Shown piece after piece: positions 5,302 through 52,981 of a DNA stretch of 64,000 nucleotides. Origin of the DNA: a virus. Position numbers and translations under genes: made by a program. Within the stretch, counting starts at the first letter, position 1; the number at the start of each line of letters is the position of its first letter. The stretch lies in IMG/VR virus record IMGVR_UViG_3300024520_000047, positions 181,875-245,874 of that record. The stretch is one strand, 5' to 3'. The notes under the pieces were generated by a model. It saw nothing but the letters and a program-made list of their open reading frames with translations. It was not told where the DNA came from and ran no database searches.

Positions 5302-5315
5302 AACTAAAATAAAAG

Positions 5316-6231: not shown

Positions 6232-6853
6232 AGAATTTAAAGAAATTAAAAACGTTGTTAAAAATCTTAATAAACTTAAAGAGTTAACGACAGATTTAGA
6301 TATTGAAAAAGGTAAATCGCTAGAAGAAGTTTTGGGCTTAGATTTACAGGATATTGAAAATATAACGACACCTTCAGAAAAACCTAAAATAGATATTAAA
6401 TTTATAAATAAAAGTGATAACGATGACCCATCCTATTTTCATGAGGGTGATAGTGGATTCGATTTTCGGGCCCACATTCCTAATTACGACCCACTCGAAA
6501 CCCCCAATATCGTGGTAGAAGTGGGAAAAGTATCTATAATACCTACGGGCCTTTACTTTGGGATTCCTAAGGGTTATGAATTACAAGTAAGGCCACGTAG
6601 TGGATTAGCAGCAAAATTTAATATTACTGTCTTAAATACACCCGGAACAGTAGACAGTAATTATCGAGGAGAAGTTAAAATAATATTAATTAATCTAGGT
6701 GAGACAGATTTTCAAATCGAAAATGGTGATAGGGTAGCTCAAGGGGTGATAACGCCTGTACTCACACCAGAGTGGTCTCAAATGGTAAAAGTAAATAAAC
6801 TAAGTTCAACGGACAGAGGAGAAGGGGGATTTGGAAGCACGGGGAAAATTTAA
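6224..6853 (+). CDS. dut: dUTP diphosphatase (trimeric dUTPase)
   Basis: Hydrolyses dUTP to dUMP, keeping uracil out of phage DNA and supplying the dTMP pathway. All five motifs of the trimeric family are visible: GDSGFDFRA, RPRSGLA, NTPGTVDSNYRG, NGDRVAQ and the C-terminal glycine-rich DRGEGGFGSTG. An N-terminal extension of about 60 residues (Lys/Leu-rich helix) precedes the catalytic domain and is not typical of the family. It sits among sugar-modification genes with an 8-nt overlap upstream. It is the only clear nucleotide-metabolism gene in the operon. Confidence 0.9.
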   Translation: MIKEFKEIKNVVKNLNKLKELTTDLDIEKGKSLEEVLGLDLQDIENITTPSEKPKIDIKFINKSDNDDPSYFHEGDSGFDFRAHIPNYDPLETPNIVVEVGKVSIIPTGLYFGIPKGYELQVRPRSGLAAKFNITVLNTPGTVDSNYRGEVKIILINLGETDFQIENGDRVAQGVITPVLTPEWSQMVKVNKLSSTDRGEGGFGSTGKI

Positions 6854-6858
6854 ATTAA

Positions 6859-10117: not shown

Positions 10118-10126
10118 ATAAATAAA

Positions 10127-10906
10127 ATGAAATTAATAGAAGAATCTCTTATAAAAAATGATAAAATTATTAAAGAGTTAAAAAATAAAGCTGCCCAAGA
10201 AGGTGGAAAGAGACACCCTAACACTAAGGATATTTTTAATAGTAATACACAAAAAGGGCATTCCCAATTGGGCCAATATGGGGTAATCAAATCTATTTTT
10301 AAAAAATTGGAGGTAACCAACAAATATTATGTAGAATTTGGTGCAATGAATGGAACCTCACTATCAAATACTGCCGATTTACGAATACATGAAGGTTGGA
10401 GTGGTTTATTATTGGAGGGTACGTCACAGAGTATGCCCAATATTAATTTACATGGTAATACATGGGTTACTAAAGACAATATTAATGAAATTTTTAAAAA
10501 ACATAATGTACCACATATTTTTGATGTGTTAAGTATCGATATAGATGGTAATGATTATTGGGTGTGGGAAGCATTAAATTACGCCCCCCGTTTAGTAGTG
10601 ATAGAAACTAATCCGGGAATATCTAACGAATATCCAGTTGCCATTGAAGAGAATTGCCAAAATACAAATGAGGGTTATTTTGGGGCAAATTTACATGCTT
10701 TTTATGATTTAGCAAAACACAAAGGTTATGAATTAGTTACTACGTTAAGGTGGGATGCTTTCTTTGTAAAAAAAGAAGAATTTCATAAATTAGGGATACC
10801 ATTGATAAGTAAAAAAGAATGCATATCAGAATATTTCCACCCTTCGCCATTTTGGCTTAACTTTAAAAGTAATAAAAAATGGATACATTTAGAAAATAAA
10901 AAATAA
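10127..10906 (+). CDS. FkbM-like SAM-dependent methyltransferase, 259 aa
   Basis: The central Rossmann part has YVEFGAMNGTSLSNT (SAM loop), GLLLEGT, DVLSIDIDGNDYWVW and VVIETNPG, an arrangement seen in FkbM-like sugar O-methyltransferases and their relatives. An N-terminal helical segment of about 60 residues precedes the domain. It sits between two glycosyltransferases, so methylation of a glycan hydroxyl is the simplest hypothesis. The exact substrate cannot be read from the sequence. Confidence 0.6.
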   Translation: MKLIEESLIKNDKIIKELKNKAAQEGGKRHPNTKDIFNSNTQKGHSQLGQYGVIKSIFKKLEVTNKYYVEFGAMNGTSLSNTADLRIHEGWSGLLLEGTSQSMPNINLHGNTWVTKDNINEIFKKHNVPHIFDVLSIDIDGNDYWVWEALNYAPRLVVIETNPGISNEYPVAIEENCQNTNEGYFGANLHAFYDLAKHKGYELVTTLRWDAFFVKKEEFHKLGIPLISKKECISEYFHPSPFWLNFKSNKKWIHLENKK

Positions 10907-10940
10907 AATCGATGAAGACTATAAAAAAAATATTTTATAA

Positions 10941-11795
10941 ATGATAGAAATATATTTTGCTCCTGCGTGGGGTTTATCTAATAAAGAAATGACCGATTGG
11001 TATAAAAAGCAGACACCTAGGAATGAGGGGGTATGGGAAGATACTATTTGTGTTTATGATAAAAACGAAGCCAATTATATTATAATGCAAGACACCACAA
11101 CTGAAAACATAGATAAAACTAAAACAATATTTTTTGGAAAAGAGCCTAATCATATAGCCAAACATAGGTGTAATAACTGTATGAAAGAGTTACACCATGA
11201 AAAAGGTAATACTTGGATGCCACAAGTTTGGTGGTTAGACTTTACTTATGATGAGTTAATAAATTTAAAACCATTCAAAAAATCAAAAAATCTAAGTGTT
11301 ATAAATTCAATTAAACAGTCAACAGAAGGCCACAGAAAAAGAATTAATTTAATAAACAATTTAGTTAAAAAATACCCTATAAATGTTGATGTTTGGGGTT
11401 CTATCACTAGTGGTAGGGAAAACACAGGGCCTTATAAAACTAAGTTACCACCAAAAGATAAGAAGAATGGTATATTACCCTACAAATACCACCTAACTAT
11501 TGAGAACGGTTCTTCACCTTATTATTTTTCTGAAAAAATTGTCGACCCTTTACTATGTTGGTCAATGCCTATATACTGGGGTTGTAAAAATATAGATAAA
11601 TTTTTACCTAAAGGCTCATATATTAATATTGATATTAATAAGAAGGGGGTTGAAGATGAAATAATTAGTATTTCTAAAAGTAACATTATGGAAGAGAATA
11701 TAGATAATATTGCTGAGGCAAGAGAGTTAATGTTAAATAAATATAATTTATGGCCTACAATAAAAAAATCTTTCATCGAAGATAATTTTTTTTAA
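10941..11795 (+). CDS. GT10 (alpha-1,3-fucosyltransferase-like) glycosyltransferase
   Basis: The C-terminal half carries the GT10 signature: YHLTIENGSSPYYFSEKIV followed by DPLLCWSMPIYWG, corresponding to the donor-binding ENS...TEK and PIYxG elements of bacterial alpha-1,3/4-fucosyltransferases. The N-terminal half (FFGKEPNH, WWLDFT) fits the acceptor domain. GT10 enzymes normally use GDP-fucose, and Gmd- and Fcl-like enzymes are encoded 4-7 kb downstream in the same operon. Length 284 aa is at the short end. Acceptor unknown. Confidence 0.65.
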   Translation: MIEIYFAPAWGLSNKEMTDWYKKQTPRNEGVWEDTICVYDKNEANYIIMQDTTTENIDKTKTIFFGKEPNHIAKHRCNNCMKELHHEKGNTWMPQVWWLDFTYDELINLKPFKKSKNLSVINSIKQSTEGHRKRINLINNLVKKYPINVDVWGSITSGRENTGPYKTKLPPKDKKNGILPYKYHLTIENGSSPYYFSEKIVDPLLCWSMPIYWGCKNIDKFLPKGSYINIDINKKGVEDEIISISKSNIMEENIDNIAEARELMLNKYNLWPTIKKSFIEDNFF

Positions 11796-11798
11796 AAA

Positions 11799-12536
11799 AT
11801 GAATAAACTATCAATCCTATCACCACTTAAAATAACGACTAAAAAACAATTTGATATTTTTGTAAGGTGTTTATCTACATATAAAAATATAATACAAAAT
11901 GAAAATACAGAATTTTTAGTGGTTAACGAATCTACCGATAATTTTAGAAATATGGTAGAAGATGAAATAAAATCTATAAAAAAAAATGTTATATTTTTAA
12001 ACGTTAATGGTATGGTAAATTCAGTTAAGGAATTAATAAAAAAATCAAAAAATAAATATATAATGTTTTTTTTAGATGATGTTGAATTATTATTTGAACC
12101 TAATACGTGTATTAATGATTGTATTTCGGTTATGGATGAAGATGATTCCATAGACCAAATAAAAATTGGCGGTGGTAAAGTACATAGCTCTAATGAAAAA
12201 CAAATAGACGTATTTAAAACAACACACCAACCAGTAAAAATTAATAACAACATTGTATGGTTAAATGAATCAAGTAAGGAAGAACCGGCATACCTAATTT
12301 CACAATGGAATAGTATTATGAGGTCTAAGTTACTTAAGAGTTTAGTTAAAAAATTAAACACTAATTTTAATAACTGGGATGCTTTTACTGTTCAATGTTC
12401 TAAAATATATAATAAAAAAAGTAAAGAAACTAAAATTGGTTGGTTAAATTTGAGCCCTGGTTTATATGCTTGGGGAAGGACCCAAGTTTCTTTTGAAAAC
12501 TACAAATTAAATTATGATAAAAACAATAGGGGATAG
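11799..12536 (+). CDS. Putative GT-A-fold glycosyltransferase, 245 aa
   Basis: The order of elements fits a GT2-like fold: LSILSPLKI at the start, FLVVNEST, a helix, and then IMFFLDDVELLF, whose DDVE could be the metal-binding DxD. The second half contains QIKIGGG and WLNLSPGLYAWGR. The match is by pattern only. Its end overlaps the next gene by 23 nt, so the two are likely co-translated. Confidence 0.5.
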   Translation: MNKLSILSPLKITTKKQFDIFVRCLSTYKNIIQNENTEFLVVNESTDNFRNMVEDEIKSIKKNVIFLNVNGMVNSVKELIKKSKNKYIMFFLDDVELLFEPNTCINDCISVMDEDDSIDQIKIGGGKVHSSNEKQIDVFKTTHQPVKINNNIVWLNESSKEEPAYLISQWNSIMRSKLLKSLVKKLNTNFNNWDAFTVQCSKIYNKKSKETKIGWLNLSPGLYAWGRTQVSFENYKLNYDKNNRG

Positions 12537-13107
12537 TCATTCAGATAGTAAATGGAGTAATTGGGCTTCAGTACCAGGTGTAGAAACCAATTGGTTGAAG
12601 GGTCAGGGTAAACTAGCTTATTCTATCGGTAGAGATGGTATTAATATAACTGATTATAATATAATGGAGGGTGATACTGTTATTTTTTGTTTTGGTGAAA
12701 TAGATTGTAGGTGTCACGTACATAAACATATAACTAAAAATAAATCGTATAAAGACGTTATTGATGGTATTGTTTTTTCTTATGTGAATGCTGTTAAAAA
12801 AAATGTAAATACCATACCTAACACTAGATTTTGTATATACAATGTAATACCACCCGTTAGAAAATTAAAAGTACACCAAAATCCAGAATACCCACATTTA
12901 GGTTCTGATAATGATAGAAAAAATTATCATGAATATTTTAATAAAAAATTAAAAGAACAATGTGTAGAAAATAATTTTGTTTTTTTTGGTGTTTATGAAG
13001 AATATTCAGATGAAGAAGGTTTTTTAAAAAAAGAAATGAGTGATAATAATGTACACCTAAGAGACCCTAAACCAAGGATTAATTTTATTAAGAAATATTT
13101 AATATAA
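12514..13107 (+). CDS. SGNH/GDSL-type hydrolase-like protein, 197 aa
   Basis: The catalytic blocks of SGNH hydrolases are recognisable: block I IGDSHSD with the nucleophile Ser at residues 5-9, a glycine-containing FCFGEIDCRCH in place of block III, and a C-terminal NNVHLRDP that can supply the catalytic His. Such enzymes remove or transfer acetyl groups on glycans. There is no signal peptide, so it acts in the cytoplasm. It overlaps the preceding gene by 23 nt. O-acetyl editing of the operon's glycan is a reasonable inference. Confidence 0.6.
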   Translation: MIKTIGDSHSDSKWSNWASVPGVETNWLKGQGKLAYSIGRDGINITDYNIMEGDTVIFCFGEIDCRCHVHKHITKNKSYKDVIDGIVFSYVNAVKKNVNTIPNTRFCIYNVIPPVRKLKVHQNPEYPHLGSDNDRKNYHEYFNKKLKEQCVENNFVFFGVYEEYSDEEGFLKKEMSDNNVHLRDPKPRINFIKKYLI

Positions 13108-13113
13108 GTAATT

Positions 13114-13836
13114 ATGGAACCACTAAAAAAATGGCAAGAATTAACACAAAAAGAAAAAGAAAATTTTACTTTAAATAATAAAATTAAAGTAAAACATTGG
13201 TTAATAGATGGTAGGAATAATAAAAGTAAATTAAACGGTTTTTATGATAAAAAACTGGTTAATTCAATGATTGAAAAAATAAGAAATAAGGAAGTTAGTT
13301 ATTACGGACAATCAGATAAAGAATTATATGCCCTCTTAGAAAAAATAAATCTAAAAGATAAAAATGTTGCTATAATAGGTTCTACACAACCTTGGTATGA
13401 ATCTATAGTTATACATTATGGTGGCAAACCCGTAACTATAGAGTATTCAAAATTAAAAACAAATGATGATAGATTAAAATTACTAACAGTAGAAGAATTT
13501 TATAAAAACCCAGTTAAGTTTGATATAATATTTTCAATATCGTCTTTTGAACACGATGGATTAGGTAGGTATGGTGACCCAATAAACCCTTTTGGGGATA
13601 TTGACGCTATGTCAAAAATGAAAGATATTATAAAAGAGGATGGTTTATTATTCCTAGCTGTACCAATAGGTTTAGATACTATTTTTTGGAATGCTCATAG
13701 AATTTATGGTGAACATAGATACCCTAAATTAATAGAAGGCTGGGAAATTGTTGATAAAGTGAGTTTTAATGAAGGTAGATTAAAAAAAGAAAACGGAATG
13801 TACCAACCCGTTGTCGTATTAAAAAAAAAGAAATAA
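13114..13836 (+). CDS. DUF268 family protein (methyltransferase-like), 240 aa
   Basis: The second half matches DUF268 well: VAIIGSTQPWYESI, TIEYSKL, SISSFEHDGLGRYGDP with PINPFGDIDAM, LFLAVPIG and WNAHRIYGEHRYPKL ending in GWE. DUF268 proteins have a Rossmann arrangement like class I methyltransferases and are common in polysaccharide clusters, although their reaction is not established. The N-terminal 80 residues are a lysine-rich helical part. Context supports a glycan-modifying step. Confidence 0.7.
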   Translation: MEPLKKWQELTQKEKENFTLNNKIKVKHWLIDGRNNKSKLNGFYDKKLVNSMIEKIRNKEVSYYGQSDKELYALLEKINLKDKNVAIIGSTQPWYESIVIHYGGKPVTIEYSKLKTNDDRLKLLTVEEFYKNPVKFDIIFSISSFEHDGLGRYGDPINPFGDIDAMSKMKDIIKEDGLLFLAVPIGLDTIFWNAHRIYGEHRYPKLIEGWEIVDKVSFNEGRLKKENGMYQPVVVLKKKK

Positions 13837-13838
13837 AC

Positions 13839-14372
13839 ATGTTAAAATTACATTTAGGTTGTGGTGATAAAATATTACCAAACTTTACAAATATAGATAT
13901 AAGACCAATGAAAGGCGTTGATTTAATTGAAGATATTAGTACGCTAAAGAAGATAGAAGATAATAGTGTTGAATTGATTTATGCTTGTCATGTTTTAGAA
14001 CATTTTGGTAGGTATGAATATGTTAATGTTTTAACTAGATGGTTCAATCTATTAAAGGATGGTGGTAAATTGAGGTTAGCGATTCCAGATTTCGAAAAGG
14101 TCGTAAATTATTATAATGAAACTAAAGATTTAAAAAAAATAATGGGTTTTTTATATGGTGGGCAAACTTATGAACAAAATTACCATTACTGTACTTGGGA
14201 TTTTAATACAATTAGTGAAGACTTAAAGTCTATTGGTTTTAAAGAGGTTTACAAGTATAACTGGAGGGATACTGAACATTCTGAAGTAGATGATTTTTCA
14301 CAAGCATACTTACCACATATGGATAAAGAAAATGGTGAACTAATGAGTTTAAACATTGAAGCAATTAAATAA
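13839..14372 (+). CDS. SAM-dependent methyltransferase (class I), 177 aa
   Basis: A short methyltransferase domain. LHLGCGDKILPNFTNIDI forms the SAM-binding loop and the acidic ribose contact, SVELIYACHVLEHF is motif IV-like, and LLKDGGKLRLAIPDFEKV follows. This layout matches Methyltransf_11-type proteins often found in O-antigen clusters. Start is 2 nt after the upstream stop. The target may be a sugar or a lipid-linked intermediate; nothing in the sequence decides this. Confidence 0.7.
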   Translation: MLKLHLGCGDKILPNFTNIDIRPMKGVDLIEDISTLKKIEDNSVELIYACHVLEHFGRYEYVNVLTRWFNLLKDGGKLRLAIPDFEKVVNYYNETKDLKKIMGFLYGGQTYEQNYHYCTWDFNTISEDLKSIGFKEVYKYNWRDTEHSEVDDFSQAYLPHMDKENGELMSLNIEAIK

Positions 14373-14379
14373 TATTAAT

Positions 14380-14931
14380 ATGGAACTAGAAGTACAACAA
14401 AATTTAAATACGGATAATTGGTTCAATTACCAAGATTTTTATAAAGTAATTTCCGAAAAGGATTTTAATGTTTTTATAGAAGTTGGCACATGGAAAGGCC
14501 ATTCTATTTGTTATTTAGGTAATTTACTTAAAAATAAGAATGTTAAGATTTATGCGGTAGATTTATGGGATGAAACATATAAATACGAAGATAACCCCAG
14601 ACTTAAAAAACAAAAAGTTATTTTACATGATATTTTTAAACAAAACCTAAAAAATAATGGTCTAAGTGATAAGATTGTAGATATTAAGAGTTTATCATGG
14701 GAAGCCGCATCAAATTTTAAAGATGGAGAAGTAGATTTTGTTTTCATAGATGCCGACCACGAATATGAGTCTGTGATTAAAGATATTAAAGCGTGGTTAC
14801 CCAAAATCAAAAAAAACGGTATAATTTCAGGACATGATTACTTTAACCCTTGTGGGGTAAAAAAAGCCGTAGATGAGATTTTCGGTGATGACGTACTGTT
14901 TAACGGCCCTTGTTGGTTTGTAGAATTATAA
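14380..14931 (+). CDS. SAM-dependent methyltransferase (Methyltransf_24 type), 183 aa
   Basis: FIEVGTWKGHSICYLG is the SAM-binding loop, IYAVDLWDE holds the acidic ribose contact, DFVFIDADHEYESVIKDI is the typical Methyltransf_24 core, and GIISGHDYF follows. I start at the ATG at 14380. A longer reading would need a TTG start at 14356 inside the previous gene, which is less likely. Third methyltransferase-like protein in a row in this operon. A metal-dependent O-methyltransferase on a sugar is plausible. Confidence 0.7.
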   Translation: MELEVQQNLNTDNWFNYQDFYKVISEKDFNVFIEVGTWKGHSICYLGNLLKNKNVKIYAVDLWDETYKYEDNPRLKKQKVILHDIFKQNLKNNGLSDKIVDIKSLSWEAASNFKDGEVDFVFIDADHEYESVIKDIKAWLPKIKKNGIISGHDYFNPCGVKKAVDEIFGDDVLFNGPCWFVEL

Positions 14932-14934
14932 AAT

Positions 14935-15543
14935 ATGCCTATATCAGATAAATATAAATTAATTTTTGTTCACATACCTAAAAATGCTGGTACTGCGATA
15001 ACAAACACTTTAGAGATGACAGATATTGGTCATCATGGCTGGGGTTATTATAAATATAAGTACCCTAACAAATGGCAAAATTATAAAAAAATAAGTGTTA
15101 TTAGAAACCCTTGGGATAGGATTGTTTCGTGTTATGAATACGCTAAAATGGAGAAAAGTTATTGGCACGCAAAAGAAGGTAAGGCTAGAGCGGGTAAACA
15201 TTTAGATTATGATTTACTAAAAGACAAATCATTTGAACAATGTTTAGATATTTTAAAAAACACACCTCAAAAATTAAAACACCAAGGTTGGAGAAACCAA
15301 TCAGACTACATATATAAAAATAACCAACTAATGGTTGATTACACTCTAGATATGGATGAAATTAATGATAAATTAGGGGACATACTTGGTTTTGAAATTA
15401 ATATACCTAAAATCAACGTTAGTAATAATAAAAACTATAGAGATTATTACGTTAACAATAATTTAATAGATATTGTATCTAAAAATTATAAAATAGATTT
15501 AATAAATTTTAATTATGAAGAATCATTTAATATCTTATCCTAG
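14935..15543 (+). CDS. Sulfotransferase (Sulfotransfer_2-like), 202 aa
   Basis: Probably transfers sulfate from PAPS to a carbohydrate hydroxyl. The 5'-phosphosulfate loop is HIPKNAGTAITNTL near residue 12, and the 3'-phosphate-binding segment is VIRNPWDRIVSCYEYAK near residue 56. A later WRNQSDYI is also typical of carbohydrate sulfotransferases. Its end overlaps the next sulfotransferase by 29 nt. No PAPS-synthesis genes are seen, so the host must supply PAPS. Confidence 0.75.
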   Translation: MPISDKYKLIFVHIPKNAGTAITNTLEMTDIGHHGWGYYKYKYPNKWQNYKKISVIRNPWDRIVSCYEYAKMEKSYWHAKEGKARAGKHLDYDLLKDKSFEQCLDILKNTPQKLKHQGWRNQSDYIYKNNQLMVDYTLDMDEINDKLGDILGFEINIPKINVSNNKNYRDYYVNNNLIDIVSKNYKIDLINFNYEESFNILS

Positions 15544-16171
15544 GTCGGGTAATCATTGGGTTAGGTTTATTGTGGAGTGGTTTTCTGGTAAACCAACTAA
15601 AGGTATGAGCAAAGACGATAAACCCATATATATTAATTTAGTTAATAAGGATACTCTAAGTCATGTCTCTGGTACTGATTATATACTTTTTAAAAATCAT
15701 TGGTACTCAAACATTAAACCTAATGAAAACTTAATTTTAATAGTTAGAAACCCCAAGGAAGCTATTATGAGACATAAAAATAAATTTACTGATGATGATT
15801 TAAAATGGTTTATGGGTTTAATAAAATCTTTTCATAACCATAAAGGTAATAAAATGTTAATTTATTATGAAGACCTGCTAACTCAACCCGAGAATAACAT
15901 AGAAAAACTTTTAAAATTTTTAAATATTTTAGATAAAAAAAAATTAAGTATTTTTATGAGTAAGTATGAAGAATTATTTAATGAATCTATAAATGTTTAT
16001 GATAATACAGGTAAAAAAGAAATAATTTCAGGTGGTAAAGGTAGGGTTTCTAAGACTAAGGGTAAGAAATTAAATTTCCATAGTAATTCATTAACCAATA
16101 AAGATAATCAAAGATTTATAAATTATTTGAACAAGAGTGGGGTAAAAAAATACATAATTAGATATGAATAA
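15515..16171 (+). CDS. Sulfotransferase (Sulfotransfer_1-like), 218 aa
   Basis: The N terminus begins with SYPRSGNHWVRFIVEW, the PAPS 5'-loop. LILIVRNPKEAIMRH is the 3'-phosphate-binding segment, and LIYYEDLLTQPENNIEKLLKFLNI is the C-terminal element of the family. It differs from the gene just upstream, so the pair is not a recent duplication. It starts inside the upstream gene and overlaps gmd by 8 nt. The two enzymes could sulfate different positions of one glycan. Confidence 0.75.
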   Translation: MKNHLISYPRSGNHWVRFIVEWFSGKPTKGMSKDDKPIYINLVNKDTLSHVSGTDYILFKNHWYSNIKPNENLILIVRNPKEAIMRHKNKFTDDDLKWFMGLIKSFHNHKGNKMLIYYEDLLTQPENNIEKLLKFLNILDKKKLSIFMSKYEELFNESINVYDNTGKKEIISGGKGRVSKTKGKKLNFHSNSLTNKDNQRFINYLNKSGVKKYIIRYE

Positions 16172-17192
16172 AAAAGTTTTAATCACAGGCATCAATGGTC
16201 AAGATGGTTCATATCTTGCAGAATTATTATTAGAAAAAGAATATGAGGTGTGGGGTATCGTAAAAAGAAATTCGGTTTCTGAAACACAATCAACTAGGAT
16301 TGAACATCTATTAGAAAATACACGTTTTAATACTGAATATGCAGATTTAACTGATATGGCCTCCTTAATTAGGGTATTATCTAAGATACAACCAATAGAA
16401 ATTTATAATTTAGCAGCCCAATCACATGTTAGAATTAGTTTTGACCAACCAATTTATACCGCAAATGCAACAGGATTAGGAACACTTAATTTATTAGAAG
16501 CTTGTAGAATGGTTTCACCTAATTCTAAAATATATCAGGCATCATCTTCTGAAATGTTTGGTAATAATATTGACGAAGATGGTTATCAAAGAGAAACAAC
16601 ACCAATGAACCCCGTATCACCTTATGGTTGTGCAAAAGTATTTTCATATAACATTTGTAGAAATTATAGAAATTCATATGGGATGAAAATATGGAATGGG
16701 ATATTATTTAACCATGAGTCACCAAGACGTGGAACTAATTTTGTAACTAATAAAGTGGTTAAAGCAGCGGTTAGGATAAAATTAGGGTTACAATATAATT
16801 TACAACTCGGTAATATGGATGCAACTAGAGATTGGGGCCATGCAAAAGATTACGTTGAAGCTATGTGGTTAATGTTACAAACAAAAAATCCAGATGATTA
16901 TGTTTGTGCTACTGGTGTTTCCCACTCAGTCAAAGATTTGGTTGAATATACATTTAATTCATTAGGTTTAAATTATCAAGATTACATTCATAAAAATGCA
17001 AAACATTTCAGACCTGAAGAGTTAAAAAATTTAAAAGGTGATTCTAGTAAAATAAGAAATGAGTTGGGCTGGGAGCCTACATATACATTTGAATCTATGT
17101 TGGATGAAATGGTAGAATATTGGATTGATTATTATGGATTTGATTATTTGCGATTAGAAAACGGAAGCTTAAGATTTCAAAAAAGAAATTAA
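16164..17192 (+). CDS. gmd: GDP-mannose 4,6-dehydratase
   Basis: Converts GDP-mannose to GDP-4-keto-6-deoxymannose, the first step to GDP-fucose. The cofactor loop TGINGQDGSYLAE is at residues 7-19. SSSEMFG supplies the catalytic Ser/Glu, PYGCAKV the Tyr and Lys. NHESPRRG and a late RPEE(L) are characteristic of Gmd. Length 342 aa is near normal. It overlaps the sulfotransferase gene by 8 nt and is followed by fcl after 3 nt, a classic gmd-fcl pair. Confidence 0.88.
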   Translation: MNKKVLITGINGQDGSYLAELLLEKEYEVWGIVKRNSVSETQSTRIEHLLENTRFNTEYADLTDMASLIRVLSKIQPIEIYNLAAQSHVRISFDQPIYTANATGLGTLNLLEACRMVSPNSKIYQASSSEMFGNNIDEDGYQRETTPMNPVSPYGCAKVFSYNICRNYRNSYGMKIWNGILFNHESPRRGTNFVTNKVVKAAVRIKLGLQYNLQLGNMDATRDWGHAKDYVEAMWLMLQTKNPDDYVCATGVSHSVKDLVEYTFNSLGLNYQDYIHKNAKHFRPEELKNLKGDSSKIRNELGWEPTYTFESMLDEMVEYWIDYYGFDYLRLENGSLRFQKRN

Positions 17193-27973: not shown

Positions 27974-29770
27974 TTATCTCAACTCTCTGATATCGAAAGT
28001 TCTTACACCATCTACTGTGATTGCTCCGTAGAATCTGTTGTTAACCACTTTCTTCGCGTATCTGGTCATGATACCTTTGATAGGTGCGAAGTTGAATGGA
28101 TTATACATCGTTGGTGTTAACTGAAGTGGTACATATGGTGCGTATACATATCCAGTATCAAGTAGAGATGTTCCTTTGTGTCCGATTAATATCTTATTAG
28201 CCGGGAAGTAAGGGTCTCTATATACTGTGTAACGTCCACTTAATGAACCTACTTTTTCAATACCCATGTTGTATTGGTCTTGTTCTGGTGCTGCGTTTGA
28301 CACGTGGAAGTATTCCAAATCGTCAAATATTGCAGATACCTCTGAAGAACATACAATCCAGTTAGCCCCACCTCTTAGTGTAGACTTGTGGATTTGAGCG
28401 GAAATTTGGTTGATTGCGGTAATCAGGGTTTGGTTCCAATCTTTTTGAGTATATGGAGCCTGACCAGCTGTAAACCTTTTCCAACCATTATAATCCCACC
28501 TTAATGTCCAAGATGCGGCAGCTCTTAGGTCTCTTAAGATTTCCCTGTCAATTTCTGCAGCGATTTCTTCAGATAATAGAGCTGTCAATTCAGCTTCGGC
28601 ATCAATGTTGTGGAATGCACTAACATCTTGTGCTAATTCTGGTGACCATTGTGCTCTTAATTTTCTTTCTGTCACTGAAACAGTTACTGCTTCAAGGTCG
28701 AAAGAAACTTCAGCCAATTCAGTTTCAAATTCAAGGTCTTGGTAGATTCTATAAGTTCCACTGAATACTGGTGCGACACCACCTGGTATATTTATTCCCA
28801 TGTAACCATCAGGTGAATTACAATCTATACAAGCGGGACATGTTAAATCCAGTTCAATAAAGATTACACCGTTTGAGTCACAAATATCGTGGAATGACCC
28901 ACCAGGGAATACAGTTGAGGTAGTTGTACCATATTGTACAATTCCAGAACCATATTTTTGAGTAACTACCCTAAATGGAATATGTGTTGTGTTTGCTACA
29001 ATATGTGTTTTACCTGTAGCGGCACAACAAGCTAAATCCGCACTGGAAGTGTAAATCAATCCAGATAAGAATTCTTCAGTATCCATTTCATTACCATTTG
29101 GTCCAATCAATTTTCCAGCTCCTGCGTTAGAGAAACCTCCCATTGAGAGAATTACACTTCGTAAACCACCATCAGTACAACCTGTAACGCCAGCTGCTTG
29201 TGCAGCAGCAACGATAGTCGAATCGATAAGTGTGTTACCCGTACTCCATGCTTGAACTGTAGTAGTTCTAGTTACAGCAGAAAAAGCTCCTTTTGACCTG
29301 TCGAATAACCCACCACCTGGTTGGTCTTCGTAAAATTGGTCATAAAGGTCAATTGGTGAGAATGTTGTATTATCATTCGCAAAAGCACCACCCACTGGGT
29401 TAGTGTGCTCTTCTAGACCTGCAATGTTTGTTCTTTCAGAAATTTTAGGTACAAAGTAGAACAATTTACCAATTGGTAAGTTCATAGCTTGTACAGAAAC
29501 GATATCGTTTGCCAATAATTTTGAGAATACTCTCCTAATGATTGGAAAAACAACCGTTTCAAATGAACCTGAAGCGTCAGCTGTTGTAGCCTCGTTAATC
29601 AGGTGTGTTGCTTGGTTTTCGTATAACTGGGCAATGTTTTCTCTTTCGTGACCTTTAAGTCCCGCAAGGAATCCAAGCTTGTCCCATTTTCCTATGGTAT
29701 CTTCGCGAATAACTTTCAGGTGTTTTAACCCTATGTTACCGACCATACCAGATTCTAATAATGCTCCCAT
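27974..29770 (-). CDS. gp23: Major capsid protein, T4 gp23-like, 598 aa
   Basis: Forms the capsid shell. Conserved T4-type segments are visible: NIAQLYENQATHLINEA near residue 45, FPIIRRVFSKLLANDIVSVQ, LPIGKLFYFVPK, and the C-terminal NPFNFAPIKGIMTRYAKK with VRTFDIREL. Gp23 is cleaved by the prohead protease after an IxE motif; here INE at residues 58-60 is followed by ATT, a good candidate. It is longer than T4 gp23 (521 aa), with an insertion around residues 180-330 holding Cys-rich LTCPACIDCNSPDG. The A-tract leader upstream lacks an exact late motif. Confidence 0.92.
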   Translation of the reverse strand: MGALLESGMVGNIGLKHLKVIREDTIGKWDKLGFLAGLKGHERENIAQLYENQATHLINEATTADASGSFETVVFPIIRRVFSKLLANDIVSVQAMNLPIGKLFYFVPKISERTNIAGLEEHTNPVGGAFANDNTTFSPIDLYDQFYEDQPGGGLFDRSKGAFSAVTRTTTVQAWSTGNTLIDSTIVAAAQAAGVTGCTDGGLRSVILSMGGFSNAGAGKLIGPNGNEMDTEEFLSGLIYTSSADLACCAATGKTHIVANTTHIPFRVVTQKYGSGIVQYGTTTSTVFPGGSFHDICDSNGVIFIELDLTCPACIDCNSPDGYMGINIPGGVAPVFSGTYRIYQDLEFETELAEVSFDLEAVTVSVTERKLRAQWSPELAQDVSAFHNIDAEAELTALLSEEIAAEIDREILRDLRAAASWTLRWDYNGWKRFTAGQAPYTQKDWNQTLITAINQISAQIHKSTLRGGANWIVCSSEVSAIFDDLEYFHVSNAAPEQDQYNMGIEKVGSLSGRYTVYRDPYFPANKILIGHKGTSLLDTGYVYAPYVPLQLTPTMYNPFNFAPIKGIMTRYAKKVVNNRFYGAITVDGVRTFDIRELR

Positions 29771-29810
29771 TTTAATTTTATTTTTTTTTTGTAAGCGTTT
29801 ATTTAATTTA

Positions 29811-31493
29811 TTATAACTTAGACATAATCTCTTTCATCCTAGTAATTTGAGGATTTTCATATGTCTTAGTTTCAATCAAGTTAATTGATGACCCCCGTGA
29901 AGGAGTTTTAGTAATGGTTTTTTGAACCGATTCAGTTAATGATTTTGCCTCAGCACCCAAATCACTTGAGATTTGCCTGTACAAAGATTTACTTTCATTA
30001 AGTGTTTTTACATTGTCAAAACGTCTAAGAATATTGATTTTCTCTTTTTTAGTGGTAGTGTGTTCAGTAAACAGTTTCGTTGAATACGCTAAATTAGCGT
30101 TAAAAACTGCTACTTCATTCAATTTACCTCTAAATATTTTTAAAGCATTTCTATATTCTTTATTTTTTGCTTTGTAATTGCGATTTTCATTTTGAAGTTT
30201 TTTGGATATTTCAACAATTTCGTTGATGGTTTGTTTCTGTTTCCTAGATTCACTAAGGTCTAAGTTTCTATTATTAGTAAAAGCTTTTCTTAAGCCCCTA
30301 CCTTTTTTAGAGCCAAAACCTGTAGTTCTAGAAGCTTCATCAACCTCTTGTTCTTTGGAAGCCACACCCTCTAAAGGATTGTTCTTATCTTGTTTATAAG
30401 CTGTTTCCATTGAGTTGAGGTCAGCACCAACTAATTTGTTTATAAACTGACGTGGACATTTAGGTCCCATTTGTTTACAAGCAAGAAAAGCATTCCATTT
30501 GTAATCGTTTTCGTCACAACCTTCAGAACCTTCTTGTTTACACCAGCTTTGATAATTACGTAAACTGTTATAAATTTTAAAGTCGCCCATAAATTGTTCA
30601 TTTAACGATTGGTCATTTTGATGCCCCCAACCATGTGAATGGTCCTTTTTTCTATTACCCCATTTACCATAGGATAAAGATTGGTCATCATGACCTGCTC
30701 CTAATCGCATGCCCATAGATTCATGTTCACGGTCATAGTCACCTTGACGTTCCTTAAATTCATGTCGAGTTTTTTGACTACGTCCCCTACTTCCAAAATC
30801 AGAACCTCCTTGGTCACCATGTGATGAACCACTATGTCCATCATATCCTGGGTCTGTATCTTTAAAATCAGGGTAGTCTACACCACCTTGGTCTCCTTTA
30901 TACATACCACGTTCATCGAGTTCGATTTCATATAAAGTTTCATCATCATCCCCTTCATTAAGTTCAGGTTCTATGTCAACATCTTGTTCAAACTCAATGT
31001 CTTCTTGTTCCATATTTTCTTCATTTAAATCGCCTATCCCTTCATTTATAAAAGGATAGTTTTTTAGTTTATTCTCGGCCAATTCGATTTTATATGATGT
31101 ACCAGCTTCCTGGTCTTCAATATCGATAACATTATCATCTTGTGTTACCACAATTCCGTCTTCTGCTCCCATTGATTTAAAAACTTTGAGAACTTCATCG
31201 TCTGATGCTGTTGTTAGGTCGAGTGGTTCATCCGAGTCCACTTCCATGGACACCATTGCTTCTTCTTCTTCATCAGGTAGTCCGCCTACCTCTTCTTCTT
31301 GGTCTTCATTTTCTATCTCGTCAAATTCTTCAACGTCCTCGAATTCATCTTGTTCGTTTAAAGATTCTTTAACAAGCTCTTCAATTTCTTGCTTCATTGT
31401 TGAAGCGAGTATTTCTTTTGCGTTAGATTTAACAGCCTCTTCTAATTGTTGTGCCTCTAAAAGAGCCTGTTCTAATACTGATTTTTTTTCCAT
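29811..31493 (-). CDS. gp22: Prohead core/scaffold-like protein (gp22 position), 560 aa
   Basis: Lies directly upstream of the capsid gene and downstream of the protease gene, where T4 encodes scaffold gp22. The N-terminal 170 residues are strongly acidic (Glu/Asp runs such as EFDEIENEDQEEEVGG). Residues 200-300 are Gly/Asp/His-rich, then comes a Cys-containing WCKQEGSEGCDEND segment, and the C-terminal 200 residues are helical and basic. This fits an assembly core protein that is degraded on maturation. Assignment is by position and composition. Confidence 0.6.
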   Translation of the reverse strand: MEKKSVLEQALLEAQQLEEAVKSNAKEILASTMKQEIEELVKESLNEQDEFEDVEEFDEIENEDQEEEVGGLPDEEEEAMVSMEVDSDEPLDLTTASDDEVLKVFKSMGAEDGIVVTQDDNVIDIEDQEAGTSYKIELAENKLKNYPFINEGIGDLNEENMEQEDIEFEQDVDIEPELNEGDDDETLYEIELDERGMYKGDQGGVDYPDFKDTDPGYDGHSGSSHGDQGGSDFGSRGRSQKTRHEFKERQGDYDREHESMGMRLGAGHDDQSLSYGKWGNRKKDHSHGWGHQNDQSLNEQFMGDFKIYNSLRNYQSWCKQEGSEGCDENDYKWNAFLACKQMGPKCPRQFINKLVGADLNSMETAYKQDKNNPLEGVASKEQEVDEASRTTGFGSKKGRGLRKAFTNNRNLDLSESRKQKQTINEIVEISKKLQNENRNYKAKNKEYRNALKIFRGKLNEVAVFNANLAYSTKLFTEHTTTKKEKINILRRFDNVKTLNESKSLYRQISSDLGAEAKSLTESVQKTITKTPSRGSSINLIETKTYENPQITRMKEIMSKL

Positions 31494-43861: not shown

Positions 43862-45727
43862 TTATTTTACTTCTTCATATTCTACATCTGTAGTTTCAGG
43901 GTCATCTTCAGGTGGTGGTGTTGTGTCACCTTCAGTTTGTTCGTATAACTTACTAGAAATAGTTTGCCATTTGGAATTAAGGTCGTCCATATTAACTTTA
44001 ATTTCATCTAAATCTTCATTTTTGTGAGATTCCCTTAACTTATTAACTGATTCTTGGAGTAACTGTTTATCGTCGTCATTTAATTTTTCATCAAACTCAG
44101 TAATTTGTCTTTCCGTTTGAAAAATCATGGAATCCGCCTCATTTAGTTTATTGATTTTTTCTAACTTTTCTGAATCCTCTTTAGAGTTTTTCTCAGCTTC
44201 CATTTTCATTTTATTAATTTCTTCCTCATTGAGACTATTACCAGATTCGATTCTAATTTTTTGTTCTTTATTAGTTCCTTTATCTTTAGCACTAACACTT
44301 ATAATACCATTTGCGTCAATATCAAAAGTGACCTCAATTTGGGGAATACCTCTTTGTGCAGGTGGAATATCAGTTAATTGAAAATTACCTAATTTTCTAT
44401 TATCCATAGCCATTGGCCTTTCTCCTTGTAGTACATGAATATCTACTGCGGGTTGATTATCTATAGCTGTAGAAAATACTTGGGATTTACTCGTTGGGAT
44501 TGTAGTGTTTGCATCTATAAGTTTAGTCATAACACCCCCCATAGTCTCAATACCTAATGAAAGTGGTGTTACATCTAAAAGTAATACGTCATTAACATCT
44601 CCCGTAAGAACACCCCCTTGTATTGCAGCACCCATAGCTACAACTTCATCTGGATTTACACCTTTAAATGGTTTCTTTTTAAAAAATTTCTCAACAGATT
44701 TTTGTATAGCTGGAATTCTGGTAGACCCACCAACTAAAATAACCTCATCAATGTCTCCAATAGTTAAACCACTATCTTTAAGTGCTTTTTTACATGGGAC
44801 CATTGTTTTCGTCACTAATTTATCAATCATAGATTCGAACTTAGCTGTAGTTAGTTTTTTAACCAAGTGCTGGGGTCCTGTACTATTAGCACTTAAATAT
44901 GGTAAATTGATATCTGTGGAATTTGAAGACGACAATTCTATTTTAGCTTTTTCAGCCGTATCTTTCAATCTTTGTAAAGCGATAGCGTCTTTACTTACAT
45001 CTATTCCAGTATCTGATTTAAATTCATTAATTAACCAATCAATTATAATTTCATCAAAATTATCTCCCCCAAGATGTGTGTCTCCATTAGTAGAGAGTAC
45101 TTCAAATACACCACCACCTATTTCAAGAATAGAAACATCAAATGTTCCACCACCCAAATCGTAAACCACAACTTTTTTGTCTTGATTTTCATCTAAACCA
45201 TAAGCTAATGCCGCTGCGGTAGGTTCGTTTATAATACGTAAAACATTTAACCCAGCAATTTCACCAGCTTCTTTAGTAGCGTTTCTTTGGGAATCATTAA
45301 AATAAGCGGGTACTGTAATAACAGCATCCGTTACCTTAGTTCCTAAATACTCCTCTGCCGTTTTTTTCAAATTTTGTAAAACTATAGCTGAAATTTCTTG
45401 TGGTATATATGACTTTCCATCCACACTAATTTTAATACTATCATTAGTGCTTTTTTCTATTTTATATGGAATTTTACTTATTTCTTTTTTTATTTCACTG
45501 AATTTACTTCCAATGAATCTTTTTACCGAATAAATGGTATTTTCTGGATTAGTTACTGATTGTCTTTTTGCCGAGTCACCAATTACTCGTTCATTGCTTT
45601 TAAAAGCAACAATAGAAGGTGTTGTTCTTTTACCTTCTAAATTTACTATGACTTCAGGTGTACCACCTTCAATTACTGAAACGCATGAATTTGTGGTTCC
45701 TAAGTCAATCCCTATTACTTTTGACAT
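43862..45727 (-). CDS. dnaK: Hsp70 chaperone DnaK
   Basis: ATP-dependent protein folding chaperone. The ATPase domain is intact: [13 protein letters not shown] at the start, [12 protein letters not shown] and GGSTRIP. The substrate-binding domain has [10 protein letters not shown] and a helical lid ending with VEYEEVK, close to the DnaK ending of Bacteroidota. Length 621 aa is near normal (638 in E. coli). No DnaJ or GrpE is present in the window, so it must use host cochaperones. It is divergent from the clpC-like gene with shared operators between. Confidence 0.92.
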
Positions 45728-45791: not shown

Positions 45792-45814
45792 TAAGTATAC
45801 CGTTTAATTATTTA

Positions 45815-45848
45815 TGACATACTGTCACCATATACTGACATATTGTCA
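45815..45848. promoter_or_regulatory. Two palindromic operators in the dnaK-clpC interval
   Basis: TGACATACTGTCA (45815-45827) and TGACATATTGTCA (45836-45848) are perfect inverted repeats TGACA-N3-TGTCA. Their starts are 21 bp apart, two helical turns. They do not resemble the CIRCE element. They lie between dnaK and the clpC-like gene and may coordinate both. Confidence 0.6.
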
Positions 45849-45877
45849 CTACTTGATTTTAAAAGGTATTAATGTAT

Positions 45878-45885
45878 TATTTATA
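45878..45885 (+). promoter_or_regulatory. Late-promoter-like TATTTATA motif
   Basis: TATTTATA with 12 nt to the ATG at 45898; this distance supports that start. Confidence 0.45.
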
Positions 45886-45897
45886 ATAAAAAATGTT

Positions 45898-47949
45898 ATG
45901 ATAGAACCGACAGGAAGTTTTGCAGAATTTGAAAAGGGTAAACCCCAAAATTTACCTAAAAAAGAATCACTTTCATCGAAAAGTGGAACACCAGTACTAG
46001 ATAATTTTTCAAGAGATTTGATAAAATATGCGGAAGAAGGAAAATTAGACCCCGTGGTTGGGAGAGAAAAAGAAATTAATAGAATAGCCCAAATTTTATC
46101 ACGAAGAAAAAAAAATAATCCAGTATTAATAGGTGAACCAGGGTGTGGAAAAACCGCACTAGTAGAAGGGTTGGCTATGAAAATAAATGAAGGTAAATGT
46201 CCTCGTAATTTATTAGATAAAAGAATTGTGGGATTAGACCTAACATCCATCGTAGCTGGTACCAAATATAGGGGTCAGTTTGAAGAAAGAATGAAAGCTA
46301 TAATTGATGAATTAGTAGAACATGAAGAAATTATAATTTTTATTGATGAGATTCATACCGTCGTTGGAACCGGAAATGCTTCTGGTTCATTGGACGCCGC
46401 CAACATATTTAAACCCGCATTAGCACGGGGGGAGGTACAATGTATTGGAGCAACCACCATAAATGAATATAGAGAAAATATTGAAAAGGATGGTGCTCTA
46501 GAAAGAAGGTTTCAAAAAATAATAGTCGAACCCACAACTGTAGAAGAAACATTACAAATACTTAAAAATTTAAAAGAACGTTATGAAGAACACCATAAAG
46601 TTAATTATAGTGATGAGTCTTTAGAAGCTTGTGTGTTATTATCTGAAAGATATTTGACTCACAGAGAATTTCCAGATAAAGCTATAGATATTATGGATGA
46701 AGTGGGAGCTAAAGTACAAGTAGAATTAGAATACCCTAAAGAAATTGAGGATTTAAGACGAATACTTAGTGATTTAAAAGAAGAAAAGGTAGAGGTGGTA
46801 AAATCACAAAAATATGAAAAAGCCGCGGAATTAAGAGATAAGGAACGCACAGTTTTAGGTACTCTTGAAGAAAAAAAATTGGCGTGGGAAATGGAATTAG
46901 AAGATAGTCGTAAACCAGTAACGGAAGATGATATATATGATGTAGTTTCCCAAATAACAAAGATACCCATATCTAGATTAGACACTAATGAAACAAAAAC
47001 ATTACTGAGTTTAGAGAGCTCTCTTCAAAAAATTGTAATAGGTCAAAATGAAGCTGTCAAGAAAGTTGCAAGAGCCATCAGGCGTAATAGGGTTGGGATT
47101 AGAGATAATAAAAAACCAATTGGTTCTTTCATGTTTTTAGGTTCCACGGGTGTTGGTAAAACTCACTTAGCTAAAGCGATTGCACGTGAGGTGTTCGGTA
47201 ATGAAGATTCTTTAATACGGTTAGATATGTCAGAATATAAAGAAAAATTCAATTCAACAAGATTGATTGGTTCACCACCTGGATATGTTGGTTATAATGA
47301 AGGGGGTCAACTAACTGAAGCTGTTCGCAAAAAACCCTATTCGGTAATATTGTTAGATGAAATAGAAAAAGCTCATTCCGATATTTATGACCTATTATTA
47401 CAAATATTTGATGAAGGGCATATAACTGATAGTTTAGGGAGAGTCATTAATTTTAAAAATACCCTTATCATTATGACCTCTAATGTGGGAGCTAAACAAA
47501 TGGGTGAATTTTCAAACCCTTTAGGGTTCACAACGAAAGATTCTGAATCAAGAACAGAGGAAGCGGTATCACAAATATTGAAAAAAGCACTAAAAAATAC
47601 CTTTAAGCCAGAATTTCTAAATAGGGTAGAACATAATATAATATTTAAAAGTTTAGAAAAAAAATCTATTAGTAAAATAGTAAGGTTGGAACTGAATCAC
47701 TTACAAGAAAGATTAAAAGAAAAAAAATACCACATGACTTTTGATAAAAAGGTAACTGATTTTATTGTAAAAGAAGGGTATGACGATAAATTCGGTGCAA
47801 GACCAATAAAAAGAGCAATTCAAAATAAGTTAGAAGATTTTATTTCTGAAGAAATATTAAAAGGAAATGTCGTGGAACACAATACCTACACTATGAGAAT
47901 TAATAAAGATAATGAAATTACTATAAACGAAGAAAGTGATAATGAGTAG
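45898..47949 (+). CDS. ClpC-like AAA+ unfoldase lacking the N domain, 683 aa
   Basis: Two AAA+ domains: GEPGCGKT (residue 79) with Walker B, and GSTGVGKT (residue 415). Between them is a UVR-type motif ([16 protein letters not shown]). The second domain has the ClpP-docking loop tripeptide LGF at residues 542-544 (NPLGFTTK). The N-terminal adaptor-binding domain of ClpC is absent, and the protein starts with a Lys-rich linker. The start at 45898 is preferred over 45814 because it lies 12 nt after a TATTTATA motif. Unfolds substrates; may use host ClpP. Confidence 0.85.
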
Positions 47950-50388: not shown

Positions 50389-51210
50389 TTAAAAGAGTAA
50401 TTGGGAATAATCTTTTTCTTGGTGTTTAAATGTATGTCTAGTATTCCCCAGCTTTTTAAGAATATTTTTTCCTAGTAAAATTGCATTACTAACATCTTCT
50501 ACTACAACATATTCATTTTTTGTGTGGTATCTATAATAACCAGTTGCAAAATTTAAACATGGAAAATCAAAATTTTTCTTTAACATCATTGTGTCGGTAT
50601 ATGGATGATATAACCATTTAATATACCCGTGATTTAATATAATATCCTTAACTGATTCAAAAAACAAACTTTTTTCTTCATACAGTTGGACACCCATTAA
50701 AGTTTTACTCATTGTATCATTTTCTGTAGAGTCAAATTGTATTGCGTAGCCCACATTTTTAAAAAACTCTGGGTCTGCTTGTTTTGAACCGTGACATCCA
50801 GTTTCTTCTGCAACGGGAAAGAAAACTTTACACGTGTCTACTTCTCGAAGAATTTCCATACATGTAAACACCCCAGCTTTATCGTCTCCACCAATACCTG
50901 TTGGTTCTCCAGTTTCTTTTTCATAAGCTTTTAAAGCAAATTTAGGTTCATTTTGTGCATTTAACCTATATTCCTCCTCTATAACCATATCAACTTTTGG
51001 GTGAACAGTATCTAAGTGAGCAACCAAGCAAGGATAAATCTCACTCTGGCCTTTGGTAATATAAAGACACCCCAAGTCGTCTTGATAAAAGGACACACCA
51101 TTTATTTGTTGTAACTCATTTATCAAAAATTCAATTAGGTCGTCTTCCTCCCAAGTATAGGTCGGAACGGCTAACAAATTTTTTAATCGTTGTAATTGTT
51201 TATTTTCCAT
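50389..51210 (-). CDS. M20 family (PepT-like) metallopeptidase, 273 aa
   Basis: Zinc-dependent exopeptidase fold. Metal-binding residues are visible: HLDTV (H65, D67), GIGGDDKAG (D109/D110), EETGCHGS (E135/E136) and the C-terminal HTKNEYV. At 273 aa it is shorter than PepT (about 408), so the dimerisation domain may be reduced. It has a host-type promoter with the ATG only 4 nt after the -7 element. A peptide scavenging or processing role is possible; the family is unusual for phages. Confidence 0.75.
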   Translation of the reverse strand: MENKQLQRLKNLLAVPTYTWEEDDLIEFLINELQQINGVSFYQDDLGCLYITKGQSEIYPCLVAHLDTVHPKVDMVIEEEYRLNAQNEPKFALKAYEKETGEPTGIGGDDKAGVFTCMEILREVDTCKVFFPVAEETGCHGSKQADPEFFKNVGYAIQFDSTENDTMSKTLMGVQLYEEKSLFFESVKDIILNHGYIKWLYHPYTDTMMLKKNFDFPCLNFATGYYRYHTKNEYVVVEDVSNAILLGKNILKKLGNTRHTFKHQEKDYSQLLF

Positions 51211-51442: not shown

Positions 51443-51516
51443 GCTCCCGTAGCTCAACTGGATAGAGCAACAGCCTTCTAAGCTGTAGGTTATAGGTTCG
51501 AGTCCTATTGGGAGTA
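51443..51516 (+). tRNA. tRNA-Arg (anticodon UCU)
   Basis: 74 nt cloverleaf. The acceptor GCTCCCG pairs with TGGGAGT with two G-U pairs. The anticodon stem ACAGC/GCTGT encloses CTTCTAA, so the anticodon is TCT, decoding AGA. The T arm ATAGG/CCTAT with loop TTCGAGT is intact. CCA is not encoded. AGA is a common Arg codon in this AT-rich sequence, so the gene may ease codon demand. Confidence 0.93.
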
Positions 51517-51599
51517 CGTAAAAAATTTTGTAATATTCTTTGTATTGTCAAGTATTTATATTACATTTATAATTAGTTCTTTGAAAATATTTAAAATAT

Positions 51600-52013
51600 G
51601 GGGGTGACTGGAATTGATTGGCATACACCGATAAAAGTCAGCACGTCGAGGCTAAACTAACCTTGGAAAACTGGTTTAACTTTCTAAAACGGCAACGTAT
51701 TAGATACCATGACAACTCTTGGACTTATCCATGACGAGTCAACTGTGACTGTAGCGTAACTAGGTTACGACTATTTTTAGTCCCGTTCTTACTATAGAAT
51801 TTAAGATTTGTTTCTTTAGTTTGTAGAACGTCATAAGACAAATCGAACTCACCGTAGTCATTTAGGTGATTAAAATATTAAATGACTGGGACTCTGGATG
51901 GTTGTTTATTCTATGAAAGATTAGTCCGAGGATAAAAGAATAAACTAAACGTGTAGGATAGATTTCTATAGTTGATGAGCAAGACGCGGGTTCGAATCCC
52001 GCCACCTCCACCA
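51600..52013 (+). ncRNA. ssrA: Transfer-messenger RNA
   Basis: The ends pair: GGGGGTG (51600-51606) with CACCTCC, then A and an encoded CCA (52011-52013). The T arm GCGGG TTCGAAT CCCGC is typical. The resume codon would be near 51691, nt 92 of the RNA, as in E. coli. From there an open frame of 22 codons ends at TAA 51757-51759. The encoded tag has no ALAA ending; the last residues are TVTVA. The RNA rescues stalled ribosomes; a late-type motif lies at 51553-51560. Confidence 0.88.
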
Positions 52014-52026
52014 TATTAAATTAATT

Positions 52027-52137
52027 AAGTGGGTACCTGAGACGGACGCTTCGTAGCCTGTAATGGATAGAATGGGTAAGACCATTTAGGGTATTAATCT
52101 CCATTGAGACCCGCGTTCTTGGAGAACCCACTTTTTT
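52027..52137 (+). ncRNA. Unassigned structured RNA with terminator-like end
   Basis: About 110 nt. AAGTGGGT (52027-52034) pairs with ACCCACTT (52126-52133), and a run of six T follows. Inside, GGACGC can pair with GCGTTC, TGGA with TCCA, and AATGG/CCATT (about 52071-52086) form a hairpin. The result is a rod with bulges. No SRP GGAAGC motif and no 5S features are seen. It starts 14 nt after the tmRNA. It may be co-transcribed with the tmRNA. Confidence 0.5.
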
Positions 52138-52981
52138 ATTTTCCTAAATTTTGGGTGAATTTACCCATATATTTTTGTAGTAAGTCACTCATGATGCCTC
52201 CACCATCTGACTTACTCTGTTGGTATGAAGCCGCGGTATCTGTTGGTGGTTCCTCAACCTTTTCACCGTACTTCACTTTTTCTTTTCCCTCTTTTTCTTT
52301 ATCATCAAGTACGCCCTGTACCTCATCTTTCTTTTGTTTTAATTTACCACATAAAACCTCTTTTACTTTTCCTTCTATTTCTTGATATATAGCACTATTG
52401 TCCCCTATATCAGTTAAACTATTACGTAATACCTGTTCAAAAGTACCGTCAAGCCCTATAGTAGATTCACCTAATTTAAAAGCTCCATATTCTATAATTC
52501 CTTTTGTTAGAAATGGTGCTAAAAAGTTACAATCAAGTAATTTGGGGATGTCCCATATTGGTACGTTTCCTAATGCAATCCCTACAAATTTTCCTAACTC
52601 TCCTGTTATTCCAAAAGTCCCTAATAACCACCTCCATAACTTTTCTCTTACGGTACCCCATAAAGAACCCAAAATACCTTGATTCTGGGACATCGTGAAC
52701 TCCTGTTCTGACAAATATTTTTTATTATGTTTTAAAGAATAAGAAATTTCATCTAATGTAAATCCCCTACTTGTAAGACGATGCATATCTCTAACAAAAT
52801 TTTCACATATAACATCAGGTGATTTCCCAATATTTTTACGTTCAAATCGGTCTGCCCAATTAATTAATCTTATGTTTTTGGATTCAGATAACACTGGTTG
52901 TTTGGGTATCGACATTTCAGATTGTGCTACACTCTCAATAAATTCAACTAATTCTGACTCTGTAAATTTAATTTTTGACAT
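52136..52981 (-). CDS. Hypothetical protein with TESEL N terminus, 281 aa
   Basis: Starts MSKIKFTESELVEFIESV, a motif shared with neighbouring genes. The centre is hydrophobic and Gly-rich with two possible membrane-like stretches (LGTFGITGELGKFVGIALGN, FLAPFLTKGIIEYGAFKLG). The C terminus is charged (KEKEGKEKVKYGEKVEEPP). No enzyme motif. Likely a virion-internal or injected protein. Its end overlaps the terminator of the structured RNA on the other strand. Confidence 0.6.
   Translation of the reverse strand: MSKIKFTESELVEFIESVAQSEMSIPKQPVLSESKNIRLINWADRFERKNIGKSPDVICENFVRDMHRLTSRGFTLDEISYSLKHNKKYLSEQEFTMSQNQGILGSLWGTVREKLWRWLLGTFGITGELGKFVGIALGNVPIWDIPKLLDCNFLAPFLTKGIIEYGAFKLGESTIGLDGTFEQVLRNSLTDIGDNSAIYQEIEGKVKEVLCGKLKQKKDEVQGVLDDKEKEGKEKVKYGEKVEEPPTDTAASYQQSKSDGGGIMSDLLQKYMGKFTQNLGK

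Follow-up and report, generated by a model that had tools for sequence, protein, structure and literature searches.

The stretch of viral DNA analysed here (the window, 64 kb) is the final part of a viral record of 245,874 bases. At 51600–52013 an earlier note, made from the letters alone, had read a phage tmRNA whose two ends form a tRNA-like domain and had named a covariance model search as the way to check it. When this search was run, RF00023 matched with exactly these coordinates and over the full length of the model (positions 1–374, E 3.5e-39, gathering score 47), and all 7/7 pairs of the acceptor stem GGGGGTG/CACCTCC can form, with the gene ending in ACCA. It is the sole full tmRNA match in the whole record. 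The permuted two-piece model RF04321 was considered and rejected, reaching only 20.2 bits at 51986–52161, below its cut-off of 47, compared to 103 bits for the one-piece model. ARAGORN makes no call for the window copy of the tmRNA. That this stretch is a tmRNA, with its tag frame as given in Table 1, is nearly certain.

A tRNA-Arg gene (51443–51517) lies just upstream of the tmRNA, and the region includes genes for a ClpC-type unfoldase, a DnaK and a protein annotated as peptidase. It adjoins a T4-like morphogenesis cluster with terminase, portal and head maturation protease. Elsewhere in the window, at 4078–17192, glycosyltransferases and two nucleotide-sugar epimerases make up a surface-sugar cassette. 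Which host does this T4-like jumbo phage infect? A tag that begins with Gly and a ClpP match to PRK14514 fit Bacteroidota. Shine-Dalgarno-like motifs are found in only 2 of the 42 window genes, and Bacteroidetes are described, in the passages cited, as naturally devoid of such motifs (PMC6847099). The host is thus most likely a member of the Bacteroidota.

Table 1 Features of the tmRNA locus and its surroundings, in window positions
Feature	Position	Strand	Basis
DnaK (HSP70), divergent neighbour of ClpC	43862..45727	-	NCBIfam DnaK 981 bits
ClpC-type double-AAA unfoldase without N-domain; LGF loop at residues 570-572	45814..47949	+	Pfam AAA_2, AAA_lid_9, ClpB_D2-small
phrog_4191 'peptidase', between ClpC and tmRNA	50389..51210	-	homologue in 33/33 regions compared (synteny)
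Leader motif AGTTCTTTGAAA (putatively boxA-like)	51575..51586	+	similar motif just 5' of the tmRNA start in most relatives
One-piece tmRNA gene (ssrA)	51600..52013	+	RF00023 103.1 bits, full-length model match
Acceptor stem 5' strand GGGGGTG, including G3 of G3-U70	51600..51606	+	57/57 distinct genes fully paired, G3-U70 invariant
A at -4 relative to the resume codon, counterpart of E. coli A86	51687..51687	+	A in 85/85 distinct family sequences
Tag frame GNVLDTMTTLGLIHDESTVTVA plus TAA stop; resume codon GGC 51691-51693	51691..51759	+	translation; homologous tags in all relatives
T arm GCGGG-TTCGAAT-CCCGC	51986..52002	+	sequence; stem paired, compensatory changes in relatives
Acceptor stem 3' strand CACCTCC plus ACCA	52003..52013	+	sequence

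The reading of the tag starts from the resume codon GGC, which, just as had been predicted, is nucleotide 92 of the tmRNA and opens a frame of 22 codons; the stop lies at 51757–51759. In E. coli tmRNA the frame is set by A86 (PMC2481249), and the equivalent base, at position −4, is an A throughout the family. The assignment rests on this base, on the homologous peptides of the relatives and on ARAGORN, which calls the homologous frame in three of them (L003, L006 and L010). Codon substitution rates do not carry it: Nei-Gojobori-style rates were tried as a proof of frame and set aside, since for the first ten codons of the tag they give similar ratios whether frame 0 or frame +1 is read. Over the same codons, position 2 varies least, with an entropy of 0.34 (position 1, 1.02; position 3, 1.08).

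An ALAA-like tag, the result that would have refuted the earlier reading, was sought in every frame of the window gene and none was found; the canonical C-terminal [LVM]AA is absent from the tag, which ends in VTVA. The earlier description of a TVTVA end that is not of the ALAA type therefore holds. The tag frame had also been called atypical, which is right for its end but not in the sense of one phage's oddity: the peptide is conserved across the lineage.

The RNA itself bears marks of conservation. Among the distinct full genes of the family each of the seven acceptor pairs is kept, changes on both sides occur at four pairs, and the G3-U70 pair, the identity pair for alanine, never varies; these 57 genes were chosen partly by pairing score, a choice that favours full pairing, though not compensatory changes. 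Several tmRNA genes of the family do not encode CCA, which suggests that the host adds it. In front of the gene, the leader motif may act as a boxA-like element. In relatives, motifs like it are often preceded by TATATTTGTA, which resembles the −7 promoter element of Bacteroidota. Just 3' of the tmRNA, window positions 52020–52140 hold a strong stem with AAGTGGGT/ACCCACTT as its closing strands and a run of T behind it (z −3.16), which could be the terminator or a small RNA. The idea that this structured element belongs to the system was weighed and dropped; none of the other loci compared has it.

How widespread is the tag? Viral relatives were gathered without using it, either by an exact match to the last 31 nt of the tmRNA or by the neighbouring ClpC-like protein, and RF00023 matches 43 of the 50 records obtained in this way. 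As for the remaining seven, four end too soon after ClpC (L014, L024, L027, L028), two break off within the 5' end of a tmRNA, after about 105 and 84 nt (L054 and L023, respectively), and the 4.5 kb that L019 has downstream show no tmRNA; its relative L018 has the tag at a distance of 5.5 kb. A homologous tag of 21–22 residues is encoded by 43/43 of the tmRNAs found. Together with the window they provide 17 distinct peptides, and in that set G1, G11, L12, V21 and A22 are invariant. Every related viral tmRNA found has a tag ending in VTVA, VAVA or VVA. Conservation extends over the length of the peptide, including a central GL[ILV]R, and is not confined to the C-terminus.

Searches with the tag itself used DNA patterns. 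The one for its last 12 codons, GL.R..EV[TA]VA plus stop, matched at least 120 stretches in IMG/VR. A tag head starting with G stands exactly ten codons upstream in 118 of the 118 loci read among the matches listed, so that none of these looks like a chance match. A slightly wider tag pattern gave no match in GTDB genome contigs, and neither did a tblastn search of INPHARED phages with one 21-residue tag, which is a weak test as short peptides rarely score. The 22-residue ESTV-type tag occurs in 11 viral contigs. Four contigs (L266, L270, L274, L275) have GKT[IL]AKL...EESTVAVA tags of this 22-residue type, with the EST end that is also seen in the window group. In the four additional contigs from the ESTV-type search, ClpC is only 59–60% identical to that of the window. 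All carriers of the tag probably belong to one viral lineage.

Along with the tag comes a ClpC. The best matches of the window protein among solved structures (PDB) are ClpC proteins, with LGF aligned to the VGF loop of ClpC. The protein has two AAA domains, an M-domain region and a ClpP-docking loop of the [VLI]GF type, and likely starts at Met29 (45898). Its alignment to the PDB structures sets in at residue 154 of ClpC, from which we take the N-domain to be absent; Clp_N is not among the Pfam matches listed. Across the window protein and 71 relatives, the docking tripeptide is VGF, LGF, IGF or MGF in 72/72, and the pore loops KYRG and GYVG do not vary in any of them. The ClpC relatives met in GTDB, scanned by exact peptide patterns, are at most 51% identical and none is labelled Bacteroidota.

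In contigs chosen by the tag alone, a ClpC relative is present in 50 out of 50 (E ≤ 2.2e-58), on the same strand and 2.1–6.6 kb upstream of the tag in the 49 that were measured. Tags that begin with G, such as GENNYALAA and GETNYALAA, are of the Bacteroidota type. ClpC was also sought in 18 contigs that match the pattern G-E-x-x-Y-A-L-A-A, two of them as long as 235 kb and 184 kb, and was found in none; ARAGORN confirms 15 of these 18 and reads tags such as GENNYALAA and GETTYALAA in them. A closer look is offered by nine contigs that share the 31-nt tmRNA 3' end of the window. ClpC accompanies all five that have this tag and none of the four others, which carry the tag DASNDAVYDQALAA (L008), ANDEKFALAA (L007) or permuted tmRNAs (L005, L009).

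This linkage was rejected as a functional proof on its own, since the genes around it form a conserved region of T4-like morphogenesis. In the 33 regions compared, the phrog_4191 peptidase is as constant as ClpC (each 33/33), and several other minus-strand genes occur in most; the constancy of ClpC is therefore partly that of its neighbourhood. As the carriers probably form a single lineage, setting them against the ALAA-tag phages comes near to one evolutionary comparison and not fifty. The pairing of ClpC and tag is thus one that we infer from co-occurrence in a single lineage, beside a conserved morphogenesis cluster. It had been suggested earlier that the tag might escape or redirect host ClpXP, or mark proteins for the ClpC-like protein. 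By the counts above, the latter is the best supported of these roles, with recognition of the tag by ClpC as the predicted element.

Further components of a degradation route are less constant. The genome of this phage has two adjacent ClpP-family genes of its own, at record positions 30264–30788 and 29414–29806 (L245 648–1256 and 1492–2154; about 29.4–30.9 kb). The encoded protein of 220 residues is close to genuine ClpP, while the one of 202 residues scores best as a head-maturation type; by eye, Ser, His and Asp are in the expected motifs of both. ClpP was detected in 3 of 45 records of tag phages, which may be fragments, and DnaK in 11 of 28. Both were considered as obligatory partners and rejected for this patchiness, while ClpC and the tmRNA are constant. 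SmpB was sought in 20 records and found in none.

What, then, might the tmRNA do for the phage? We regard it as probable, if far from assured, that it is a functional one-piece tmRNA with a recoded, lineage-specific tag, whose tagged products pass to phage ClpC together with phage or host ClpP. The fold, the frame, the conservation of the tag, the co-occurrence with ClpC, the docking loop and the phage's own ClpP genes form the basis of this explanation, all of it read from sequence. Host AlaRS would charge the phage tmRNA with alanine, and host SmpB would deliver it to ribosomes stalled during infection, which would then extend the unfinished chain by Ala-GNVLDTMTTLGLIHDESTVTVA. This tag would most likely be recognised by the phage's own ClpC without N-domain, which would thread the tagged chain into ClpP, either the phage's own, as here, or that of the host in relatives lacking one. 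A AGNVLDTMTTLGLIHDESTVTVA-tagged protein would be expected to be broken down by this ClpC acting with a ClpP from the phage or from Bacteroidota. The outcome would be phage control over the disposal of truncated proteins or over the recycling of host ones. A stricter version, in which the conserved recoded tag is poorly read by host proteases and recognised only by the phage ClpC, with some members contributing their own ClpP, is a tentative proposal that we would rather doubt than adopt.

Two further facts weigh against the route through phage ClpC: most members have no detectable ClpP, and VA as a small hydrophobic end could be acceptable to host Clp proteases. The tag might be an ordinary degron for host ClpXP or other host proteases, its end a product of drift in the lineage and its link to ClpC a matter of shared neighbourhood. 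The VA terminus, the restriction to one lineage and a neighbourhood conserved beyond ClpC, as the phrog_4191 peptidase illustrates, speak for this. Against it stand a tag conserved along its length, GL[ILV]R included, the lack of ClpC in the ALAA-type contigs and the DnaK that adjoins ClpC, which comes and goes while ClpC and tmRNA persist. We consider this unlikely, yet the most serious of the competing views. It is also conceivable that ribosomes are rescued while the products resist host ClpXP, so that truncated structural proteins are spared or marked and ClpC acts as a remodelling chaperone. The missing ALAA end, the few records with ClpP and the adjoining morphogenesis cluster would suit such a role. 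A pure chaperone would have no need of the [VLIM]GF docking loop found in every ClpC, and this genome has two ClpP-family proteins, one of them close to genuine ClpP, which makes the idea improbable.

Two other possibilities concern the RNA. The window sequence, alone among 85, has an A at −5, and in E. coli tmRNA the change U85A shifts 45% of tag reading in vitro to the −1 frame (PMC2481249). Taken together, this would allow a minor second tag here. To a stronger version, in which a good part of resumption in the window copy takes the −1 frame, yielding RQRIRYHDNSWTYP and leaving the conserved tag as one of two products, we give little credence: the A at −4 is kept and it is the 0-frame peptide (GNVLDT...) that matches the family tag. 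Phage tmRNAs reduced to the tRNA-like domain exist, as the passages cited describe for DS6A (PMC4131195), and a decayed gene or a decoy that titrates SmpB without real tagging could be imagined along these lines. A full-length covariance match, compensatory changes in the acceptor stem and a frame and stop conserved throughout the lineage leave this hardly credible.

Related gene sets are seen in other huge phages. A 484-kb phage with an IGF-loop ClpC (LR756508.1) has a tmRNA (L119 1501–1947) whose tag, read by hand, is GVNNADYESAGFTAEDFAQMDGESLYHGSERKPAAV plus stop, where ARAGORN gives GRRKPLSW. The same phage has a second tmRNA of 112 nt (L123 1501–1612), which consists of the tRNA-like domain only and resembles that of DS6A. 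Two phages of 635–642 kb (L294, LR745206.1; L295, LR756502.1) encode SmpB and a ClpC relative, and in neither does any tmRNA exceed the Rfam cut-off, perhaps because it has diverged.

If the proposed route through phage ClpC holds, it would give a specific answer to the question of why phages carry a tmRNA, namely that the products of ribosome rescue are rerouted to the phage's own protease. It would also mean that Bacteroidota phages supply a naturally orthogonal pair of degron and protease, and that a tag and an unfoldase have evolved together, which is rare.

In its fold, the G3-U70 pair, the A at −4, the Gly resume codon and the TAA-ended frame, the RNA resembles the bacterial one-piece tmRNA (RF00023) that works with SmpB. 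It differs in its setting, a phage genome with a ClpC gene of its own nearby, and in its tag, 21–22 residues ending in V[TA]VA or VVA, whereas bacterial tags that begin with G have 9 residues and end in YALAA. The unfoldase shares two AAA modules, an M-domain region, pore loops and the ClpP-docking GF loop with ClpC of B. subtilis and S. aureus; unlike these, the window protein is without an N-domain, and the relatives examined are similarly short. Phage-encoded tmRNAs as such are known from the mycobacteriophage Bxz1 group, Bacillus phage G, Melnitz-like methylophages and huge phages (PMC4131195, PMC9004378, PMC7162821), for which the passages cited mention no tag that is conserved throughout a lineage and linked with a phage ClpC. 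What marks the present case is a tag that departs from the ALAA type of other phages (G-E-x-x-Y-A-L-A-A), is conserved in a lineage and is always accompanied by a phage unfoldase. A similar pairing of a foreign-type tag with its own protease is found in Mesoplasma florum, whose ssrA tag is read by its own Mf-Lon (PMC9097571); there the reader is a Lon in a cellular genome, while the reader predicted here is the ClpC of a phage.
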